DNA of 64,000 nucleotides from Agapetus fuscipes (lineage: Eukaryota > Arthropoda > Insecta > Trichoptera > Glossosomatidae). Below, piece after piece: positions 6,501 through 37,166 of this stretch. The notes below the pieces were generated by a model that worked only from the letters and a program-made list of their open reading frames with translations, was not told the DNA's origin and ran no database searches. The stretch covers positions 3,224,001 to 3,288,000 of the forward strand of contig OX637343.1 in assembly GCA_951799405.1 (NCBI GenBank), in the 5' to 3' direction. The translations under genes and the position numbers were made by a program. Positions within the stretch are counted from its first letter, which is position 1. Each line of letters starts with the position of its first letter.

Positions 6501-9500
6501 GTTACTTGCAACAAAACTCGGTTAAATAATTTTTTCACTCGACTGTGATCGATACCCTTATATAATAATAATAATCTATAATCTAAGTTGCAAAGATATA
6601 TTCATTTAAAGCTCTCAGATGTATGCCCACAAACCAACAAGTGTAGTTCGCGCTTACAAATGCTGAATGTGTACTTACAAATAAAATCCAAACCTCAAAT
6701 GAACATAAGCCCCACAACTTTTGCCGACCTTCCCTGAAACAGGGGTGACATTGGCAAAGTGAACCATTTTTTACAGTATGGGTGGTCAGCCTCATACCAA
6801 CCTATAAGTCAAGGAATATGAATAATAAATTACATTTAAATATAAAAAAGAACAAAACCTTACAAAGAAATCTATACAAAAAAAGTCAAAAATTTCCTAT
6901 GCAAAAAATGTAGCAAATGAATACACCAACATTAGAAATCAACATTGCAGATTAGCCGCCACTTCTTCCTGTCCTTGCATACTTCTTTCATTTCATCCAG
7001 AGTCATAACCTTTTTCATACAAGTCCTCCTTTTATTATGACTCTGGATATCCCATTCATTCGCTATTTCAGAGATTTGATCCTTCCATACTTTTCTCGGT
7101 CTTCCTCTACCACGACATCCATCTATTCTAGCAACATATACTTTCTTCGTCAATCTTTCATCACTCATTCTCTCCAAGTGCCCGAACCATCTTAACATAC
7201 TTCTTTTAATCTTCACTTTCACACTTTCCCTTACACCACATTCTTCTCTTACAAAATCATTCCTCACCCTGTCACTTCGTTTTTTCCCAATCATACTTCT
7301 TAGATAGTCCATTTCTACTGTATGGACTTTACTAATTTCCCTTTCACTCACCGTCCAGGCTTCACTTCCATACATCAAGGTTGGCACTAGTATACCACCG
7401 TGCACCGCCAATCTAACATTTTTTGAGAGATTTTGGTTCCTGGCGATGCAAGCGGTCGCACCCAGTACACACCTGCCTTTATAATGATCTAAATAAAAAT
7501 AATTGTACAAAATATGAGCTACAGGCTTGGGTGACTCGACTAATAGACTTCCGAAAAATGCACAACGTCAACAATTTCGTTTATTTTCATATTTTACGAG
7601 TCATTAGTGAAAACACTATTCACAATAGGGTAATTGCAGTGGTGGGGAAAACGGTTTAAAATACTATGGTTGTGTAGAGTACATTTCAAGGATCACAACC
7701 ATATAAATAAATAATAATAATATTAGGATGATTTATTTGGTGAGTGAGGTGTTTTTGTATGTATCACACCTCAAGAGCCCTCTGCGAGCTTGGTCGTCGC
7801 TGTAGAAAGCGCAAATTCTCAAGCAAGACCCAGTTGTTGTAAGGTTGGATGGACCTTTCAGTGACCGGTCTTTGGTAAAGGTTTATGAATTTTTCAACTC
7901 GGCGAAGAGCACATTCGAAATATAAATGGTATATTTTGTGCTCCGCCGGGATCCGAATCCACAACCTTCCATTTACGAGTCCGAAGTGTAGCCACCGGAC
8001 CGGTCCATATATTTTTTAAGTAGTAAAAATAAAGATATCATTGATCTATAATCTATAATTGAAGCTGCAAAGATATGTTAACATTCTAATCTAATCAAAT
8101 CTAATCTAATCTAAGTTGCGAAAATATGTTACATTGGGGATTCAAATTATACCTATGCATTCTCACAAGCAGAAACGTACAAAGTCGCGCTTGCGCATGC
8201 CGCATGTGAACCTACAACAACAAAACTCAAATCTCAAATGGACATACACCATGCAACTCTTGCCGTCCTTCCCTGAAACAGGAGTGACATCGGTAAAGTG
8301 AACCATTTTCTACAGCATGGGTGGTCGGCCGCATACCAACCTATAAGTCAAGGAACATACACGACAAATTACATTTTTTAAATCAATAAATAATATCATT
8401 GGACATCAAAACTAAAACAGAAAACAAATTCCAATTTAATAAACCCTAGCCGCCAACATTACAGATCAACCGCCATTTCTTTCTGTCCTTACATACTTCT
8501 TTCATTCCCTCCAGAGTCATAATCTTTTTCATACAGGCTCTTCTTTTATTATGACTCTGAATTTGATGTGAGAAATCACACTTAATTTTTATTTTTGTCT
8601 GATTGGAGTTCGGTGCAGCAGACCCTAAATGTTGTATATCTTTGCAACTTAGATTATAGATTATTAATCTGATGATTACGTAAGATTCAGTAATTGGTAA
8701 CTTTTTACTCTTTACAAAGATTAACGAACCAATCACTTTACTTCTATTCTATTGTTGTAAGAAGCTATAATTACTGGCAAGCCCATTTCCGCGACTTCAG
8801 TTTTAATTTTTCATCGCTAGAAAATCTGATTGGCAATATTAGTTTTTCCATAAAATTTCTATAAAGCTTCAACCTTTTTATTGACAAAAAACAACAAAAA
8901 TCTACGGATGTCTGAAGACGGAAAAACACAATAGATTCGTGTCACGACGTATCGGTAAAAGAGAACTCGTCCAACGACAGTTCGGCCATAGACAAATCGG
9001 TTACACGACACTTCGTCCACACGACTTTTCGGCCAAAGACAAATCGGTCAACGACAACCCGTCCAAAGACAACTCGGCCATAGACAAATCGGTCACACGG
9101 CACTTCGTCCACACGTCATTTCGGTCAATGACATTTCAGTCATATACAATATATTGTATTCAATCGGTCCGGAGTCCAGTGGTTTACACTTCTGACTCGT
9201 AAATGGAAGGTTGTGGGTTCGAATCCCAGCGGAGCACAAAAAGTGTCGTGTGGCCGATTTGTCAATGGCCGAACTGTCGTCGGACGAGTTGCCTATTACC
9301 GATATGTCGTGTAATCCACTAGATTATGTCGCTGGGATGGTCAAGGGGAAAAGGCGTTGTATCCGGTTCGAACCCCGCCTGCGTCATGTCCTATCGACAA
9401 TAACTTCGATCCTGGGGTGGAAGTCTCATCACCACGGTAATTCTTTCCTACCGAGTATCGGTAATATTTGTATGAAGACTAATCAGCTGATTACTTGCAG

Positions 9501-21331: not shown

Positions 21332-21815
21332 GATTGGCGGTCCACAATGGCATATTGGTTCCGACATTGGTGTATGGAAGTGAGGCGTGGACAGTTAATG
21401 AATGTGAGCTGAGTAAAGTATGTACGGTTGAAATGGCTTACCTGAGAGCAATGGCTGGAAAGACACTGAATGATAGAGTACGTAATGATTGGGTGATGAA
21501 AGAGTGTGGTATAAAAGAGAATATGAGAATGAAAGTGCAAAAAAGTACGATGAGATGGTTCGGACATCTCGAAAGAATGGATGATGAACGACTAACGAAG
21601 AAAGTGTACAAAGGAAATGTCAGAGGAAAGCGCGGAAGGGGAAGGACGAGGAAAGAATGGTTAGACCAAATAGGTGAGATTGCGAAAGAATGGAACCTGC
21701 AGAGTGAGAATAAGAGAAGAGTATGTATGAAAAAGGTGATGAATATTGAGGAAATGAAAGTGGTTTGTAAGGACAGAAAAAATTGGAGACGCATCTGCGG
21801 AGGTACCGGCCACCC
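21332..21815 (+). pseudogene. RTE-like LINE C-terminal fragment
   Basis: Open for 161 codons, the best preserved relative of the arm 1 fragment: MAVHNGILVPTLVYGSEAWT, MRWFGHLERMDDERLTKKVY, KDRKNWRRICGGTGHP. 5' truncated; catalytic core absent. Confidence 0.85.
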
Positions 21816-22703
21816 CTAGTGGAACGGCGGCAGGATACAGAGAGTTTGATAAGAGGCTTAATAACAAAGACATGTGACGTTTGGGAAAAATCAAATACGC
21901 TGCATCCATGCCGAAAATGTTCCGAGTACATAGAAAAACGAAATAAAAAAACTACCTTTCTAGAAATAAAGAGACACCCCATCTCTCAGGTTCAGTCTCC
22001 CCTCCACTGACCCACGCCCTGTATATCCATCCCACCCGGGGATGTGTCACAGGACTCGCATGCAAAAGTTATGTGAGATGCGAGTGGCAGAAGGCCCTCC
22101 CGTGAAGCTACACTTTCCCAAGTGTTTACACAAAGCAAAGGAGGCTCAGAAATCACTGAAAGATTATAGCCGTGAGGGTTTAGGGCTCGAGGATTTTAAA
22201 TTTACAAACAAAAATTCAAAGTAATAAACAGAATAAAAAATAAAGAGACAGGTCACGGGCGTCGTTAGGTATTTATTTAGGAGCTGGCTGGGTAAAGATA
22301 CGGCTATATCCACGCCCATGGCCGCCACCTTTCCCGCCCTTTCCCAACTTGTGTCTGACAGCTAATTTGCAGTGAGAGGTCCTTGACACGCTTCCAGAGA
22401 CCGCCCGGCCGATATGACAGCAAATTATTTTATATTTATCAGCCTAGCGTGAGTCCCCACGTTATATGCTGAAGGTGTAGGTGTACTTTGATTAATGAGG
22501 TCGGAACATTGAAAAGGGCGCGAAAATAAACCTCAGTAATCGGCCGAATCACTTCCAAGTCTGACCACCAGAGGCGCTAGTCTCTCATCCATACTGTTAT
22601 GATTTTAGTTGGGTTATATTAATTAAACTGCAATTTATTTTTCAAGTTTTATTTAACACAATCTTCACGGCTCTATCAGTTTTTCAATCGACACTCATCT
22701 CTG
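21816..22703. other. Unassigned region after the RTE-like fragment
   Basis: Moderate GC, short frames only; could be 3' sequence of the LINE or unique DNA. 22900-22980 repeats words of the 1880-1940 segment in reverse (CTCGACTGTTCTGGA, TTGTTCCACCAGCGTG). Confidence 0.4.
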
Positions 22704-26515: not shown

Positions 26516-26680
26516 TGTAAAGGTCTTTGAGTGTTGGGTGTTATTAAATAAAACTCTTGCATGCCCTTTTCTTACACGCAAATTTTTATTGTTTTTTCAA
26601 AAGCTATTGTTTTTGGGAACAAAAGAAGCAGCATTCTAAAATTCAAAATTAACAGCCCTGTTAGGTACAAAATCACTACA
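26516..26680 (-). repeat. 3' LTR of the CsRn1-like element
   Basis: 165 bp, TGTAAAGGTC...ATCACTACA on the + strand, matching the LTR at 30841-31005 throughout as read. Contains TTAAATAAAACT, usable as a promoter or poly(A) box. Confidence 0.92.
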
Positions 26681-26696
26681 GAGGTCCCCTCCAGCA
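26681..26696 (-). other. Polypurine tract of the CsRn1-like element
   Basis: Minus strand GGAGGGGACCTC directly before the 3' LTR, the expected position for plus-strand priming. Confidence 0.65.
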
Positions 26697-26756
26697 TTTG
26701 CCAAGGGCAGATGCGATGAAAGTGGTGATCGGTGAATCTTGACTTCTCTTAGGTTT

Positions 26757-29700
26757 TTAGTAGAATCTGTCTGGAAAGTGTACTTTTCGGCCCGATCTTG
26801 TTGTAGTGGTTGTAGTAGCAGGAGTCCCAGGAGTTGCAGGAGTAGCAGTTGTTGGTGTGTTTTCTCTAGCTACTACTGGTACTGGTTTTGGGTCTGCGTT
26901 TGTAGTTTCTGTTGTATCTTCAGGCATGTAAGCTGGTTTCAAACGATCTATGGTGATGTTTTTAGCTTGACCTTTTATCATTATTGAAAAGTATTTTTCA
27001 CTCTTTTTGGCAACAGAGAAAGGTCCCTCGTACGGTGCTTGTAGTGGAGTACGAGAAGCGTCAGTTCGCACAAACACATGTGTACAATCTTTCAGTGCTT
27101 TGTGTACAAAGGTCCGTCTTTTCCCATGATTGCCTGTTGGTGTTGGTCTTATATCTTGTAATGACTGCTGTAGTTCTCTTGCGAATGAACCTGGTTCTGC
27201 TGGTGTTGTATCTTGGAAGAAGTCACCTGGCAGTCGTAGGGTAGTTCCATACGTCAGTTCTGCTGGAGAGTGTCCAATGTCCTCGCGAATAGCATTCCGC
27301 AAGCCAAGGAGAATCATCGGGAGATGTTCGGTCCATTTCACTGTTGTGTGAGCTTTGATAGCAGCCTTGAGGGTACGATGCCATCTTTCAATTAAGCCGT
27401 TAGACTGAGGGTGATAGGCTGTTGTCCTGTTGTGTTTGATTCCTAGTGTTTTTGTGATTTCGAAAAATAGCTGGGATTCAAACTGTCGTCCTTGATCAGT
27501 GACAATAGTTGCAGGAACGCCGAATCTTGCTATCCAGTTTGTGATCAGAGCGGCAGCCACTGTTTTGGCTGTGATGTCACTTATTGGTATAGCTTCTGGC
27601 CATCTTGTATATCGATCGATGATGGTCAGACAGTAGGTTTGTCCTTGAGATGGTGGGAGTGGTCCTACCAAGTCTATGTGTATCCACTGGAATCTTTCGT
27701 CTGGTGTAGGAAATTCTTGCAGTGGACTTGTTGTGTGCCTGGATGTTTTAGTCCTTTGGCAACTGATACATGTCTTTACCAACTTTTTTATGTCACTTTG
27801 CATGTTGGGCCAAACGTACCTTGTTCTTATTGATTTGTACGTAGGCTTTGGTCCAGTATGACTGATATCATGGTATTGCTGTATAATATTTTTTCTCATA
27901 CTTCTGGGAACAAATGGTCTTATAGTTCCTGTTGATGTGTCACACCAAATCATTTTATTGCCTCCGGGAATTAATAGTTGTTTCATCTGGAGTGAAGAAT
28001 TTTCAGTGAAAAATGTTTCTAGTTCTGAATCTTGTTTTTGTTCTTCTGCCATTTGCTCGAAGTCGGTTTGCGGTGGAATTGCAATAGTTTCCACTCTTGA
28101 AAGTGCATCTGCAACAACATTTTCCTCACCTGGCACATATCTTATGTCCGTGGTGAATTGGGACACATAATCCAATTGTCGCTCTTGTCGTGGAGATGCG
28201 TTTTGTTTGTTTTTGTTAAATGCATAAGTTATGGGCTTATGATCCGTTTTAATATGGAAGCTTCTACCTTCCAACATTCTGCGGAAATATTTTACAGCTT
28301 CATATAGTGCTGTCAGCTCTCTGTCATATGTGCTGTATTTCAATTGAGCTGCTGAAAATTTCTTGGAGTAGAATGCCAGCGGAGACCATTGGTTGTGGGT
28401 CCATTGTTGCAAGACGGCTCCCATTGCAGTGTTGGATGCGTCCACCATGATAGAGATTTCTGCGTTTTCATCAGAGTGTATTAGCAATGTTGCGTTTGCC
28501 AGATCAGTTTTTGTTTGTTGAAAAGCGTGAATCATTTCTTCTGTCCATGTGATCGGTTTCTTGTCCCCTTTTTTCACTTTCGCGATGGAGTCGTAGAGTA
28601 TTTGCTGTTTTTCAATTGCCTTGGGGATGAATTTTCTATAGAAATTTATCATTCCTAAGAATCTTCTCAAGTCTTTTGCAGTTGTGGGCAACGCGTAATC
28701 ACAAATTGCCTTCACTTTCTCTTCAGCGGGCTTTATCCCTTGTTTGTTGATGAGTTGGCCTAAGAATTTTACTTCCTGAGCACCGAAGACACATTTGTCA
28801 GGATTGATCACAAGTCCATATTCGGTGAGTCTTGTGAACAGTTGTCTGAGATGATCTTTATGTTGCGTTGCATCTCTTGATGCTATGAGGATGTCGTCTA
28901 TGTAGACAAAACAGAATTCCAAGTCTTGCAGAACTTTGTGCATGAACCGTTGAAAACTCTGTGCAGCGTTGCACAATCCAAATTGCATCGCTTTAAATTC
29001 AAATAACCCGAACGGTGTGATTATTGCGGTTTTTTCCACATCATCATCTTCAATTGGAATTTGGTGGTACGCTCGAGTAAGATCAATAGTGCTGAAGATG
29101 CTCATTTTGTTCAATTTGTGTGAGAAGTCCTGTAAACTCGGGATCGGGTATCGATCCGGTATCGTTTGAGCATTCAACTGTCTATAGTCGCCGCATGGTC
29201 GCCAACCTCCATTGGGCTTACTGACCATATGCAGTGGGCTCGACCAGCTGCTCTTTGATGGTTGGCAGATACCTTGCTCACACATTTTTCTAAACTCCTC
29301 CTTAGCAGCTTCCAACTGTTTTGGTGCTAGTCGACGAGCTTTCGCAAAAACAGGGCGTCCAGTTGTTTGGATGGCGTGCTTGACACTATGTCGTGTAGAT
29401 GCATGATGGATTTGAGGTCTCGTGATGCTTGGGAACTGTTGAAGTATCATGTTATAATCGTCTTTGTTATTCACGTCAATAGTTGACAGGCCATCTGATG
29501 GGCCTAGCAACCGGTTAGCGATGGCTATGAGCCCTGTGGTACCATCGACGAGTTGTTTCTTCTTGAGGTCCACGAGAAGATTGTGGTGGCTTAAAAAATC
29601 CGCACCTATAATCGGTTGAGTGACGTCTGCAATGATGAACGTCCATGAAAAGAGACGGCGCAAGCCTACATCAATGGAGATGGTGTGCGTGCCATACGTC

Positions 29701-29927
29701 TGAATTCTTGTACCATTTGCAGCATACAGTGTTGGTGATGCTAGCTTATGAGGTGTATTTACTGTTTTTGGGATCGCTGATATGTCAGACCCAGTATCGA
29801 TCAAAAACCTTTTGTTGGACCGCTGGTCTCTGATGACAAGTCTGCAGCAATTTTTCTTTAGCTCCTCACTCGCTGCTACTGTGGGGGGCTTGTGAAGTTT
29901 CCCGGAAACTTGCAGGGTTCGGTGCAC
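26757..29927 (-). CDS. Pol polyprotein (PR-RT-RNase H-IN) of the CsRn1-like element
   Basis: 1056 residues without a stop. Order: aspartic protease with DTGS at 44-47; reverse transcriptase about 180-420 with YIDD at 342-345 and [14 protein letters not shown]; RNase H with [15 protein letters not shown] and [11 protein letters not shown]; integrase with an HHCC zinc region ([16 protein letters not shown]), DDE residues in [19 protein letters not shown] and NGLIERWHR; and a C-terminal GPF module (APYEGPFSV). This PR-RT-RH-IN order defines Ty3/gypsy. Every catalytic motif is present. The + strand ORFs opposite are antisense shadows. Confidence 0.95.
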
Positions 29928-30712
29928 TTGTACGCTTTGTTTCCGTACTTATTATGGAAGTAACAGTAACCTGTCTGCTGGTTCTGTTTCCCGTTCTGAT
30001 TATTTTTCAGGTCACGGTTGTGATTTCGGTTACGGCTCTGGCTGCGGTTTCGGTTGCACTGCTCAAGGCGCTCTAACCTTTTATTGATTGCTTCCAGTTG
30101 TTTAATTATATACTGCATGTTGGATTCTTCAGTCTTGGGTGACGTAGAAGATGCAGTGAGAGCGGAGGACTGGGAGGTCGCAGCAACAGTATGCTCGCTG
30201 TTCTGGTATACCTCCATGATCCGGTCTGCCGTTGCTGCCTGCTCTGACAGCGGTTGGTTATTTGACCCAGATAAGATAACTTGGACGGATTGTGTTAATC
30301 GATGTAACCACAGTCTTTTCACGATTGTGCTATCTGCTGAGTTTGTTCCCGCCAGCTGTTTCATTTTGAGCAGCATGTGTGATGGTTTTGTGTCTCCCAG
30401 GTGTATGTCATTGAGCAACCTTGTTATTCTAGTCTCTTCAGACTCGTGGAAAGCGTTTAGAAGTGCTTTTTTCAGAGCTTCGTATTTTTCTGTTGCTGGG
30501 GGCGCCGTCACAATATCAGCTACCATTGTGAGCGTTGCATCATCCAGACTCATTACCAAGTGGTCAAATTTTGTTATGTCCACAGTGATGTTGGCCTGGC
30601 GGAATTGTGTTTCCGCTCGGAGAATCCACAAAGCGGCATTCTCCTTCCAGAAAGGAGCTAGCTTGACGCTAACCGCCGCAACGCATGTGGTTGGATTTTC
30701 GCCGGTCGCCAT
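29876..30712 (-). CDS. Gag of the CsRn1-like element
   Basis: 278 residues, forms the capsid and binds the element RNA. The ATG follows an A-rich leader. The N-terminal two thirds look like a gypsy capsid ([40 protein letters not shown]). A basic Q/N/R-rich linker leads to a C-X2-H-X9-C-X3-C finger at residues 250-267 ([18 protein letters not shown]), not the usual CCHC knuckle. The end overlaps pol by 52 nt, with pol in the -1 frame, so Pol would need a -1 frameshift or reinitiation. Confidence 0.9.
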
Positions 30713-30821
30713 TTTTTTTTTTTTTTAACAAAATGGTTTTCAAACACTATTTTTGGTGAAAACTTGTTGACACTTGGTTGGAACACAATTTAATTGGAAT
30801 AACACCCTTTTTAACTGTTTA

Positions 30822-30839
30822 TTCAAGTCGGGGTCACCA
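30822..30839 (-). other. Primer binding site, tRNA-Trp type
   Basis: Minus strand TGGTGACCCCGAC followed by TTGAA, one base from the LTR. The first 13 bases complement the recalled 3' end of insect tRNA-Trp (GTCGGGGTCACCA). tRNA-Trp priming is the usage recalled for CsRn1 elements. Confidence 0.75.
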
Positions 30840-30840
30840 A

Positions 30841-31005
30841 TGTAAAGGTCTTTGAGTGTTGGGTGTTATTAAATAAAACTCTTGCATGCCCTTTTCTTAC
30901 ACGCAAATTTTTATTGTTTTTTCAAAAGCTATTGTTTTTGGGAACAAAAGAAGCAGCATTCTAAAATTCAAAATTAACAGCCCTGTTAGGTACAAAATCA
31001 CTACA
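30841..31005 (-). repeat. 5' LTR of the CsRn1-like element
   Basis: Second 165-bp LTR. On the minus strand it is followed after one base by the primer binding site and then by gag. Confidence 0.92.
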
Positions 31006-31140
31006 GGTCCATCCAACCTTACAACAACTGGGTCTTGCTTAAGAATTGGCGATTTCTATAGCGACGACCAAGCTCGCAGAGGGCTCTTGAGGTGTGATTC
31101 ACACAAAAACAGCGCTCACCAAATAAATCAGCCTATTTTT
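31006..31140 (+). repeat. SINE B 3' part, split by the CsRn1-like element
   Basis: GGTCCATCCAACCTTACAAC to GCGCTCACCAAATAAATCA, completing the copy begun at 26353. Confidence 0.88.
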
Positions 31141-32963: not shown

Positions 32964-33290
32964 CCGGTCGACAGAGTTGGTAGAGTGCTCGCATACTACC
33001 CCGTGAGCTCGGGTTTGAATCCCACCGAGGAGGGTGTCAGAAATGATTTCCTATTTCGGTGTTTATTTCAAACCCCAAAATAAAAATACCGGCAAGATTT
33101 ACTCAGCCTTCACAAGAAATGAGTACCAGCCCCCTCGGGAGCTGAGAAACCCCTACTTCAACTGAAGTGGTTGGCGTAAGGCCGGCCCCCTTACCTGTAA
33201 AAATAAATAGGTTCAACTCGCCACATGCGACCCCTTCGGGGATAACGCGGCAAGAAGTCACACTATATATGTAGCTTAGTTGCGTTTTAA
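32964..33290 (+). repeat. SINE C, full length
   Basis: TCCGGTCGACAGAGTTGG head to TAGCTTAGTTGCG; B box GGGTTTGAATCCC. Confidence 0.85.
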
Positions 33291-33391
33291 TCTAATCTTA
33301 TCTATATCAATAGGTACAAAATATTTTATTATGTATTTATCTACTTTTAATTAGTTACTCTATTCAAATGTCACTATGAAATATGTAATAT

Positions 33392-33844
33392 TGTTACGTT
33401 TTTCCTGGGTTCTTTTAATTAAAACACAAGTTTAACACAAGTTAGCCATACAGTTTATTTACACAGACTTTCTTACAATAGATTTATTTTAACAGACTTA
33501 TTCTAACAGATTTATTTTAACACACTTATTTATTTCGTACAGATTACATTTATTTTACACCTTATTGGTCGCCCTGGCAACTAGATACTCCTCTGTGTGA
33601 GTGCTTCGAAGACTCACTCGCTTCAGCCCATTGTCGCCCTTCTTATAGCGGAACCTAGGGGCCATTCCAGCCTGCCCTAGAAACTTCCACTACCACAGTT
33701 GTATAGACGATTCTGGACATATTTATTTCATGAAGAGTCCATTTCCTACCTACATACACACCTTACAATTACAATCGTCTGGGCCAGAACATTCTCTCAA
33801 AACACACGTACACCAATAAACATCTACCAGTGTATTTCGTTACA
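33392..33844 (-). repeat. 3' LTR of the DEK element
   Basis: 453 bp; matches 35917-36369 along its full length as read. Confidence 0.92.
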
Positions 33845-33881
33845 TTATCCCCCCCTTAGACTGTTCCGCCCCGGAACAGTC
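33845..33881 (-). other. Polypurine tract and 9-bp hairpin before the 3' LTR
   Basis: Seven Cs at 33849-33855 (minus strand AAGGGGGGGATAA) abut the LTR. Next to them GACTGTTCC-GCCCC-GGAACAGTC (33859-33881) is a perfect inverted repeat. Both lie inside the reading frame, whose stop codon is the last three bases before the LTR. Confidence 0.75.
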
Positions 33882-35545
33882 TTTTCTTTAAGAAGGTACG
33901 GGCAGTTTGACCCACAGTTGCATCCAGTGGTCAGGAAAAATGACGTTCCACGGAATTTTCCCCTTAGGGTTTTGCCCGTCATTGCTGGCTGGTGTGGGGG
34001 GGGGTGCTTTCCTCTTGGCGGCCGGCATGGGCGCCTTTCCTTGGCTGGGGGCACCGCTTTGCGTCCCCGGGCGGCCACCGCTCCTAGGCCCCGCTTGCTC
34101 GCCGGCGTCCAAGGATCAGAATCCTTGGTCGTCGGAGCCGCTCTCCTGCTCGGAAGCGAAGTTCTCACTCTCGCTCTCGTCCTCTGACTCGCTGAGTGGC
34201 TTCCTGCCGCGCCATGCTTGGGTCGTCCCTTCTGCTTGCTCTGCTTGGCTGAGCCCCTGCGGGCGGGGGCGCGGCGCCTGCGGGAGGGAGCGCCCCCCTC
34301 CCCCACTGACGGGTCAAAGTCAGAGTCCGCCTCCTGTCCGGAGCCACTCGGGTTGTACGAGCCATCTGAATCCCCTAATTCATCCCTGCTGACTTTGGGT
34401 CCCCGCACTTTGGTTTCCGGATCTGTTTCATACTCCTCGTTAGAGTAACCTCTCTTGACAATAGCAGCAGCGGACCTTCTGGGCCTGCCTCCCGTGGCCT
34501 CGCCGCAGTCAGTCACCGGCCTCTCCTTCATCAGCCCCCTGGCGTGCGAGGAGACCTGCTTTGGCAGCAGCAGGAAGCCCATTACCCTGCTGACCAGCTC
34601 CGTGGGCGCGCCCCTCTTGTCCAAGCCCAGCTTCTCGCACAGCGTCCGCAGCTGCTTGGGCTCCAGCTTCTGCACCTCCTCCAGCTTGGCCTTGTGCTCA
34701 GGCGTGTCCTTCTCAAACTCGTAGCCCTTGAACTTCTTTTTGTTGCGCTTGATGAGGTTCGTGCGGCACAATTGATTGTACCGGAACTTGAGGTCCTCCA
34801 TCTTGAACCTGGAGATGGCCACCTCCACGTCGGGGATGTGGTCGATGGGGATGCCCCGGCCCGCGGGCACGGGCACCGGCGGCTCCACGGCCTTCTTCTT
34901 CTTGGGAGCCTCCTCCACGGCCTCCTCCGCCTTCTTCTTGGGCGCGGGCTTCTTCTTCACACTGTTGGCCTTCTTGGCCTTGCCCTTCTTGTCCTTGGCG
35001 TCCTCCTCCTTGGCGTCCGTCTCCTCCTTCGCATCCTTGTCAGCCTTCACCTCGGCCGAGTCACTCTTGCCGTTTTCAGCCGACTTGACATCATCTTTGT
35101 CATCTTTGCTGTCAGCTGCGTCCTCAGCCTTGAGCTGGCCGTTGTTTTTGGCCTTCAGGTCTCCCTTCCCCAGTTTCTGAGACGACTCATCCTCAGTTGA
35201 CATATCGGCCTTTTTGTCATCCTGATTATCACTTAATTTTACACTATCAGTGTCCTCCGACATTTTTAAGGCTAGGTTTTTAGCCCTCTCCTCCTTCCAA
35301 CCAGCTAGGTCTTCCCTCAAGCTCTTGAAGTTGGCAGCCATCTTTGTTTTAAACTCTTCCACGGCTCGCTCGCGGTCCCCTCCAGACGCCATGACAAAAT
35401 ATGCCGGGTCTTCGCCTGCCTGTTCCAAGGCCTCTATGAGGCGTGCTTGTAAGGCTGCCTTTCCTCCTGAGGTCTCCAGGTCCCTCTCCAGAAGCTCATT
35501 CTTAAGCTCATAGGCTTTGAGGTCCTTGATGTTCACCTTAGCCAT
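33845..35545 (-). CDS. Gag-like leader fused to a DEK-like chromatin protein
   Basis: 566 residues. Residues 4-40 form a SAP-like helix-extended-helix (LKAYELKNELLERDLETSG, then KAALQARLIEAL) and 54-94 a helical KMAANFKSLREDLAGW stretch; I take 1-94 as the element's own gag-like start. From Met95 the protein reads like a complete DEK N-terminus: acidic and KDAKEE-rich (95-190), a K/P-rich basic tract (191-222), then PVPAGRGIPIDHIPDVEVAI, KKKFKGYEFEKDTPEHKAK and a DEK-type SAP (LEPKQLRTLCEKLGLDKRG... to GFLLLP, about 294-328). After it come GGRPRRSAAAIVKRG and acidic and basic tails. The DEK C-terminal domain is absent; the tail runs through element sequence to the LTR edge. No introns, so an mRNA was the likely source. 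Confidence 0.85.
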   Translation of the reverse strand: MAKVNIKDLKAYELKNELLERDLETSGGKAALQARLIEALEQAGEDPAYFVMASGGDRERAVEEFKTKMAANFKSLREDLAGWKEERAKNLALKMSEDTDSVKLSDNQDDKKADMSTEDESSQKLGKGDLKAKNNGQLKAEDAADSKDDKDDVKSAENGKSDSAEVKADKDAKEETDAKEEDAKDKKGKAKKANSVKKKPAPKKKAEEAVEEAPKKKKAVEPPVPVPAGRGIPIDHIPDVEVAISRFKMEDLKFRYNQLCRTNLIKRNKKKFKGYEFEKDTPEHKAKLEEVQKLEPKQLRTLCEKLGLDKRGAPTELVSRVMGFLLLPKQVSSHARGLMKERPVTDCGEATGGRPRRSAAAIVKRGYSNEEYETDPETKVRGPKVSRDELGDSDGSYNPSGSGQEADSDFDPSVGEGGAPSRRRRAPARRGSAKQSKQKGRPKHGAAGSHSASQRTRARVRTSLPSRRAAPTTKDSDPWTPASKRGLGAVAARGRKAVPPAKERRPCRPPRGKHPPPHQPAMTGKTLRGKFRGTSFFLTTGCNCGSNCPYLLKEKTVPGRNSLRGG

Positions 35546-35916
35546 TTTTTATTTTAACAAAAATTTAAATTTACTTCAAAATAATTTACTTCAAAACAAA
35601 TTATTTTACAAAAAAATATATTTTTAAATTTCAAATAATGATATTAGATAATGATTATTTACTTTGCTTCGCCAGATCGGCTAATGAGTATTTACTAACA
35701 CTATCACAATATTATTAACACGTTATTTATGTACACTTCAATCAAATTTTTAGCGGGTAACCACACGATCGTTTTTAATTCAAGTTTAACCAGTTTTATT
35801 TAAAACTTTTTTTTTTTTATTCATCAGTTTTTATTATGTTGTCCACATATATTTTTCAAAAGTCTCAAGCACAGTTTTTACTTGGTACTTGGTTTTAAAC
35901 TTCACACCGACACCAT

Positions 35917-36369
35917 TGTTACGTTTTTCCTGGGTTCTTTTAATTAAAACACAAGTTTAACACAAGTTAGCCATACAGTTTATTTACACAGACTTTCTTA
36001 CAATAGATTTATTTTAACAGACTTATTCTAACAGATTTATTTTAACACACTTATTTATTTCGTACAGATTACATTTATTTTACACCTTATTGGTCGCCCT
36101 GGCAACTAGATACTCCTCTGTGTGAGTGCTTCGAAGACTCACTCGCTTCAGCCCATTGTCGCCCTTCTTATAGCGGAACCTAGGGGCCATTCCAGCCTGC
36201 CCTAGAAACTTCCACTACCACAGTTGTATAGACGATTCTGGACATATTTATTTCATGAAGAGTCCATTTCCTACCTACATACACACCTTACAATTACAAT
36301 CGTCTGGGCCAGAACATTCTCTCAAAACACACGTACACCAATAAACATCTACCAGTGTATTTCGTTACA
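35917..36369 (-). repeat. 5' LTR of the DEK element
   Basis: 453 bp, second copy. On the minus strand it leads through one base into a TGGTGTCGG primer-like site (35898-35915), then a leader of about 370 nt before the ATG at 35545. I could not match the primer site to a particular tRNA. Confidence 0.9.
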
Positions 36370-36381
36370 ATATAATGTCGG

Positions 36382-36838: not shown

Positions 36839-37166
36839 TCCGGTCGATAGCTCAGGTGGTAGAGTGCTTGCATTCCATGCCGAAAGCTCGGGTTCGAATC
36901 CCACCGAGGGTGTCAGAAATGATTTCCCGTTTTGGTGTTTATTTCAAACCCCAAAATAAAATACCGGCAAGGTTTACTCAGCCTTCACAAAAAATGAGTA
37001 CCAGCACTCTCGGGAGTTGGGAAAACCCCACTTCAACTAAAGTTGTTGGTGTAAGGCCGGTCCCCTTACCTGTATAAATAAATAGGTCCCGAATGGCCAC
37101 ATGTGACCCCTTCGGGGATAACACAGGCAAGAAGTTACACTATATGTGTAGCTTAGTTGCGTTTTT
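36839..37166 (+). repeat. SINE C, full length with T-rich end
   Basis: TCCGGTCGATAGCTCAGGTG head to TAGCTTAGTTGCG then T12. Next to the right end of the TTAA element. Confidence 0.86.

Follow-up and report, generated by a model that had tools for sequence, protein, structure and literature searches.

A non-autonomous long terminal repeat retrotransposon family of Agapetus fuscipes that very probably transduced the host gene DEK

The DNA analyzed here (the window) comprises 64,000 nt of contig OX637343.1 of Agapetus fuscipes (assembly GCA_951799405.1, positions 3,224,001 to 3,288,000), and a 2,978-bp long terminal repeat (LTR) element carrying part of the host gene DEK occupies positions 33392 to 36369 of its minus strand. 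Positions without a contig name are those of the window, and the parts of the element are all read from the minus strand. An earlier note on this DNA, made from the letters alone, had described two identical 453-bp LTRs within an ATAT duplication and primer-like and polypurine sites on the correct sides, and this layout was borne out in full. The 5′ LTR (35917 to 36369) and the 3′ LTR (33392 to 33844) were identical at 453 of 453 bases, and ATAT was present as a target-site duplication on both flanks (left, 33388 to 33391; right, 36370 to 36373). A primer-binding-site (PBS)-like sequence, TGGTGTCGGTGTGAAG (35900 to 35915), was located one base beyond the 5′ LTR, a call based solely on its TGG start and position, with no tRNA assigned, while the polypurine tract CTAAGGGGGGGATAA (33845 to 33859), a G-run that includes the stop codon, abutted the 3′ LTR. 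The 5′ untranslated leader (35546 to 35916) was common, in whole or in part, to 38 of the 40 copies fetched from the genome (described below). With its two LTRs, target duplication, and correctly placed PBS-like site and polypurine tract, the element is an LTR retrotransposon, and it is regarded as non-autonomous because none of its frames encoded a reverse transcriptase or integrase of its own. Pol phylogeny aside, only the PNMA-type gag and the 4-bp duplications point to the Ty3/gypsy superfamily. Overall, the element is very probably a member of a non-autonomous LTR retrotransposon family into which the host DEK gene was transduced.

The fusion frame (33845 to 35545, starting at 35545) comprises 566 codons in three parts, namely a gag start with a SAP domain and coil, a DEK part, and a remnant of the pol C-terminus, which are read as one frame in the window copy. 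The gag-derived start (residues 1 to 94; 35264 to 35545) contains the SAP domain at residues 6 to 41 (Pfam PF02037, E value of 2.4e-9) and the beginning of the coiled coil. Residues 1 to 99 matched the gag P0008 (41% over 99 amino acids), a 401-residue protein with SAP and PNMA (Pfam PF14893, precomputed) domains and an end that, by eye, resembles a zinc knuckle, confirming the 94-residue gag-like start that had been proposed. In addition, 171 bases of the SAP stretch had 95% identity with gag in a long-frame relative (C15:8421923; piece L062). The gag of the recipient element possessed a SAP domain, a coiled coil and a PNMA-type capsid.

Residues 95 to approximately 520 derive from DEK. As previously noticed, the similarity starts at Met95, with E values of 7e-63 against a lepidopteran DEK and 1.3e-11 against the solved human DEK, and the alignment begins at DEK's own start methionine. 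The element protein shares with DEK proteins an acidic start, the SAP core and later basic stretches, but differs from them in having the gag SAP in front, in having its last exons off frame (exons 8 and 9 were off the DEK frame in the copies read through) and in the absence of the C-terminal domain DEK_C, which was missing from the fusion protein; the host DEK_C exon likewise matched nothing in the element copies compared. Homology in the same frame links the final ∼40 residues to the C-terminal end of the C15 relative's long frame, indicating that a trace of pol remains; the claim of a frame without pol therefore held for reverse transcriptase and integrase but not for this remnant. At the nucleotide level, the 3′ end of the window element was 76% identical to that of the C15 relative (piece L063), whose C-terminus is a zf-CCCH domain (Pfam, 1.4e-5), and the first cysteine and the histidine of this finger are gone from the window element. 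The 3′ end of the parent element (33845 to 33988), beside and including the polypurine tract, consists of this degenerate finger and a perfect hairpin, GACTGTTCCG-ggg-CGGAACAGTC (33860 to 33882), which stands directly ahead of the tract, has a similar counterpart in the C15 relative and may be a cis-acting 3′ signal. The element lacks introns and is GC rich, as had been remarked: calculated over 200 bases at a time, GC was 0.56 to 0.69 over positions 33900 to 35200 and 0.42 to 0.56 over the gag start, against 0.39 for the whole window, and GC at third codon positions in the core was 0.93. Since the coding exons of host DEK have 0.62 GC, the high GC of the element is considered to be inherited.

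The intron-bearing parent gene that the earlier note had postulated was found, with DEK_C, on the contig that also carries the window (C11, the window lying at 3.22 to 3.29 Mb). In the 618-Mb genome, a DEK_C query matched at C11:946574-946732 and nowhere else. Host DEK extends over C11:960416-946574 on the minus strand with at least 12 coding exons (numbered 1, 2, 3, 3b, and 4 to 11), of which the 12 identified form one open frame of 656 codons whose stop lies beyond the 15 kb read; the DEK_C exon is at C11:946726-946574. Host exons 1 to 9 matched the element in order. Nucleotide identity was ∼92 to 97%, save in the acid-rich exons 3 to 4, which are contracted and for which gapped identity was 73 to 82% in the window copy and in L019, the oldest-looking copy. 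The start-codon exon, together with the last leader bases, is at 35222 to 35270 (ATG at 35263; host coding part C11:960416-960375), followed by exon 2 (35095 to 35221; 92.6% identity to the host), the acid-rich, contracted exon 3 (34930 to 35094; 74%, with 54 gap columns) and exon 4 with the start of the core (34775 to 34929), most of host exon 3b and of the acid-rich beginning of exon 4 being lost; the edges of exons 2 to 4 are approximate. The SAP core is encoded by exon 5 (34450 to 34774; 93.3%, matching the PDB DEK as above), after which come exon 6 (34364 to 34449; 93.3%), exon 7 (34211 to 34363; 94.8%), the end of which was lost in a deletion across the exon 7/8 joint, the off-frame exon 8 (34115 to 34210; 93.9%) and exon 9 (33989 to 34114; 95%), which ends at the exon 9 donor CACACCAG. 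Introns were cleanly missing at joints 1/2, 2/3, 4/5, 5/6, 6/7 and 8/9, the last seen whole in copies L020, L022 and L026. Hence, exons 1 to 9 of a spliced DEK transcript, the first of them holding the start codon, have been inserted between a gag N-terminus and a pol C-terminus, and the element combines spliced host exons inside LTRs, an intron-bearing parent in the same genome and an in-frame gag fusion, as expected of a host-gene-transducing retroelement. A lysine-rich look-alike of DEK was rejected on account of the match to the host exons, and the possibility that the frame is the host's only DEK was rejected on account of the intron-bearing gene at the single DEK_C place.

The chimaera has multiplied to about 292 copies, many of them recent and open-framed. 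The spliced exon 4/5 sequence was detected at 292 genome places with ≤2 mismatches (control, 0), while the host DEK gene needs 3 mismatches to match it; with the donor exons in order, these places uphold both the recombination of a spliced DEK transcript into a parent element with later transposition and the further DEK-bearing copies that had been predicted. The LTR end plus PBS-like site occurred at 213 places with ≤3 mismatches (control, 0), and near-identical LTRs were found at 40 places scored of 1088 candidates. Among the scored places of 2644 candidates, the window protein had 77 full-length matches at 97 to 100%, 73 of them without an internal stop. Terminal-repeat retrotransposons in miniature (TRIM) and large retrotransposon derivatives (LARD) are defined by a non-coding interior, and these labels were rejected, considering the 566-codon frame and the 73 stop-free matches.

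The fetched set consisted of the best 40 of 67 scored DEK matches, chosen by DEK protein score, which favors open frames. The order LTR, leader, gag, DEK, tail, LTR was observed in 36 of these 40 loci, with some parts partial, and L019, L030, L043 and L048 were without some element parts. Together with the window element and L003 (locus cut), they made up 42 copies, 32 of which had both LTRs near full length; the two LTRs showed no mismatch in 23 of the 32, one mismatch in eight and four in L031, and matching 4-bp duplications, which vary among copies, flanked 31. In 34 of the 42 copies, the frame opened at the gag start and ran for ≥528 codons, and 25 of the 42 ended in a pol-type C-terminus. 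When pairs were chosen by LTR alone (n = 16), seven were among the stop-free full-length frames and nine were seen only in part. On contigs C1 to C9, the exact DEK junction followed 37 of 39 exact LTR-end-plus-PBS sites and adjoined 16 of 18 near-identical LTR places, indicating that the LTR subfamily is nearly all DEK bearing in that sample. Synonymous divergence between host DEK and the copies was 0.14 to 0.18 for 9 of 11 and 0.22 to 0.23 for L020 and L023, of which at least L020 aligns badly at its end. At the butterfly mutation rate, near 3e-9 per generation, a divergence of 0.14 to 0.23 would translate into tens of millions of generations, while the absence of differences over 453 LTR bases limits the age of the window insertion to roughly 1 million generations. 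Two DEK copies in the same orientation stand 2.5 kb apart at C26:9184012 and 9186545, tandem-like with a shared LTR, and L027 and L032, with frames of 662 to 665 codons, have part of DEK (the exon 8 to 9 region) duplicated within the element.

Relatives of the element were recovered with a capsid query, which scored 150 places of 1217 candidates, most with frames of 425 to 490 residues and seven with frames of 1841 to 1877 residues. The abundant, near-equal-scoring gags of 425 to 490 residues may belong to one large and young family in which gag is separate from pol or stands alone. A DEK-less relative of the same LTR family, as had been anticipated, was found at C21:1449040-1449480, where an LTR, 88.7% identical across 452 alignment columns that include 42 gap columns, is joined to the same PBS and precedes, by ∼1.1 kb, a capsid gag with a 1062-residue frame. 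Based on this shared LTR family and gag, the gag-DEK copies are likely mobilized in trans; their LTR-driven RNA would carry the family's sites for packaging and priming, and capsid and pol would in all likelihood be supplied by relatives with the same LTRs. The C15 relative (C15:8421923), whose open frame has 1864 residues, has its gag start and 3′ end in common with the element and has a different LTR. In copies L019 to L022, the gag halves were far more diverged from the rest (synonymous divergence of ∼0.35 or more, on a doubtful alignment) than the DEK halves (0.03 to 0.09 over codons 95 to 445), and their LTRs were 78 to 98% identical to the window LTR. This unequal divergence suggests that the DEK cassette probably moved between related backbones, presumably via recombination of co-packaged RNAs. 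L019 (C1:18069500-18075000) also has a different 3′ tail past DEK, with a frame reading YCLIVQDTDKK...MPKMGGGRINRDW; this tail is reminiscent of a macro domain, but Pfam returned no match.

The human DEK SAP core has been solved on nucleosomes (PDB 9l1x and 8kcy), and a gag-DEK protein with two SAP modules could hold particles, element RNA or complementary DNA on host chromatin. We tentatively propose that such tethering favored the chimaera. It is possible, although with no greater assurance, that a host nucleosome-binding protein was adopted as a working part and that the pol-less chimaera, with its own LTR subfamily, thereby reached ∼292 copies and crossed gag backbones; the element would then be comparable to a retroviral accessory gene or oncogene, but inside the germ line. 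The evidence for selection on the DEK part is mixed, so the comparison of synonymous and non-synonymous change recommended in the earlier note gave a divided answer. In favor of constraint, the differences between L019 and the host over exons 4 to 7 numbered 22 synonymous and 3 non-synonymous, against ∼54 non-synonymous under full neutrality; this 22 to 3 ratio may also reflect two host genes if the capture occurred in a related species. Singleton variants, in copies picked by DEK score, comprised 30 synonymous and 39 non-synonymous changes (P = 0.006 against a neutral non-synonymous share of 0.715), and 17 of 18 distinct indels in codons 95 to 424 of 39 copies kept the frame (gap runs within 18 bases merged). 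Other observations speak against a retained function. The shared variants of the 35 younger copies, at 6 synonymous and 16 non-synonymous (P = 0.63), gave no sign of purifying selection (2:5 in the core alone and 1:6 in codons 346 to 445), and the window copy differed from the host over exons 4 to 7 by 20 synonymous and 17 non-synonymous changes. Frame-breaking indels occurred at codons 425 (L023, −2), 426 (L020, +40) and 441 (L019, −64), and exons 8 and 9 were off frame, with synonymous to non-synonymous ratios against the host from 3:1 (L019) to 5:13.

The main rival to a tethering role, to which we give about an even chance, accepts the same capture but holds that DEK is useless to the element, a DEK-bearing copy having become the master and the frame being open only through youth. 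The neutral behavior of the shared variants, the lost frame of exons 8 and 9 and the little time for decay implied by the 23 mismatch-free LTR pairs are in line with such a passenger, whereas the presence of the cassette on several gag versions of unequal age, the in-frame indels (from the DEK-score sample, with breaks starting at codon 425) and the 22 to 3 ratio of the L019 core are not. Rather unlikely, in our judgment, is the capture of DEK in a related species, followed by horizontal transfer or introgression into the host genome. The synonymous divergence of 0.14 to 0.23 between host DEK and the 11 copies, and a non-synonymous to synonymous rate ratio of 0.06 for L019, like that between two host genes, would agree with a donor elsewhere, but a slow vertical capture with early constraint predicts the same numbers.

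The joints bear on how DEK entered the element. At the 5′ joint, L019 reads GGAACAG/AGCTCTTAAAAATG and host DEK reads CCCACAG/AGCTCTTAAAAATG (the slash marking the joint), and DEK and the parental gag share the six bases ACAGAG there, which fits a template switch. The gag side of this joint was found at 16 genome places with ≤2 mismatches, including three known DEK copies (L019, L021 and L022), and 8 of the remaining 13, read in 111-base pieces, comprised two DEK copies and six DEK-less gags. At the 3′ joint, DEK ends at the end of exon 9, from which the element continues CCAGCAATGACGGG and host exon 10 begins CCAAAAAG. Younger copies, such as that in the window, retain a shorter piece of the DEK leader and sit on a different gag backbone. 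We favor a capture in which a particle packaged DEK mRNA together with element RNA and in which reverse transcriptase, very probably by two template switches, brought DEK into the element: the enzyme would have crossed to the DEK mRNA close to joint 9/10 and switched away again at the shared ACAGAG, where the start-codon exon has its 5′ edge. A host DEK transcript ending at or beside ACAGAGCTC would suggest that this second switch came about by running off the end of the mRNA. Some points count against this account of a transduced DEK. Joints 3/3b/4 are masked by the contraction and joint 7/8 by the deletion, the parental sequence for the 3′ joint was looked for and not found, and the 5′ edge of the host start-codon exon is a placement from genomic sequence alone; moreover, the candidate helper (C21:1449040) is known from its LTR, PBS and capsid gag only, and the movement of the cassette leaves the first parent uncertain.

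Alternatively, an element upstream of DEK could have been transcribed into the gene and a gag donor spliced to the start-codon exon, a route proposed for acute transforming retroviruses. The 5′ joint falls exactly at a good acceptor-like site of the host gene, TTTCCCACAG/AG, and the 3′ joint sits at the exon 9 donor, as such splicing would have it; nevertheless, all six DEK-less gags read (one mismatch to the pattern) continue AGACAATG after the joint, with AG rather than GT, so splicing from gag into DEK lacks a donor and is very improbable. An assembly artefact, or separate LTR insertions flanking a processed DEK copy, found no supporting evidence and can be dismissed in view of the 292 places, the same part order in 36 of the 40 fetched loci and the duplications that vary between copies.

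The chimaera has parallels in known systems. In acute transforming retroviruses, a gag N-terminus is fused to a host gene, pol is lost and a helper is needed; the DEK element differs as an insect germ-line retrotransposon family with no env. Human DEK is known from a leukemia fusion, and in Bs1 of maize host gene parts are fused to gag. Bs1 is an LTR element that contains pieces of three genes, each lacking a full frame (PMC13317346), while the DEK element belongs to an insect and has ∼292 copies of one host gene, which runs from its start codon to exon 9. Maize LTR retrotransposons likewise hold host fragments between LTRs, and a survey of them gives 425 elements with at least 189 captures, or ∼2 per capture (PMC2774510), compared with one capture and ∼292 copies for DEK. 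Transduced host open reading frames of plant elements are described in a review as sitting in one or few copies (PMC7264820), and in animals, LTR machinery puts spliced host mRNA between LTRs (Tan et al. 2016, via the review PMC8232201), a feature shared with the DEK element. Host-gene capture by LTR elements is already known from plants and animals (PMC13317346, PMC2774510, PMC8232201, PMC7264820), and no DEK-bearing retrotransposon turned up in the literature searches made. The unusual part is the growth of a single capture to ∼292 copies, many with an open gag-host fusion, unlike the one or few copies of captured host genes in the plant surveys consulted. Donor, both joints, DEK-less relatives and ∼292 descendants occur in one genome, so that the capture route (template switching versus splicing) and the benefit of a captured chromatin protein become testable. 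For annotation, the 40 best DEK matches read were element copies or remnants, not the DEK gene.

Other repeats were also observed in the window. A second LTR-type element (26516 to 31006) has identical 166-bp repeats (26516 to 26681 and 30841 to 31006) and encloses two open frames, a gag-like one of 278 codons and a pol-like one of 1056 codons, the naming being by eye. The DEK element is flanked by tRNA-like repeats of the short interspersed element (SINE) type (32975 to 33288 and 36854 to 37165), named by eye and 84 to 95% alike, with further SINE-type copies nearby in inverted orientation. Two fragments, at 6932 to 7510 (minus strand) and 21334 to 21819 (plus strand), resemble the end of non-LTR reverse transcriptase proteins (YGSEAWTV...).

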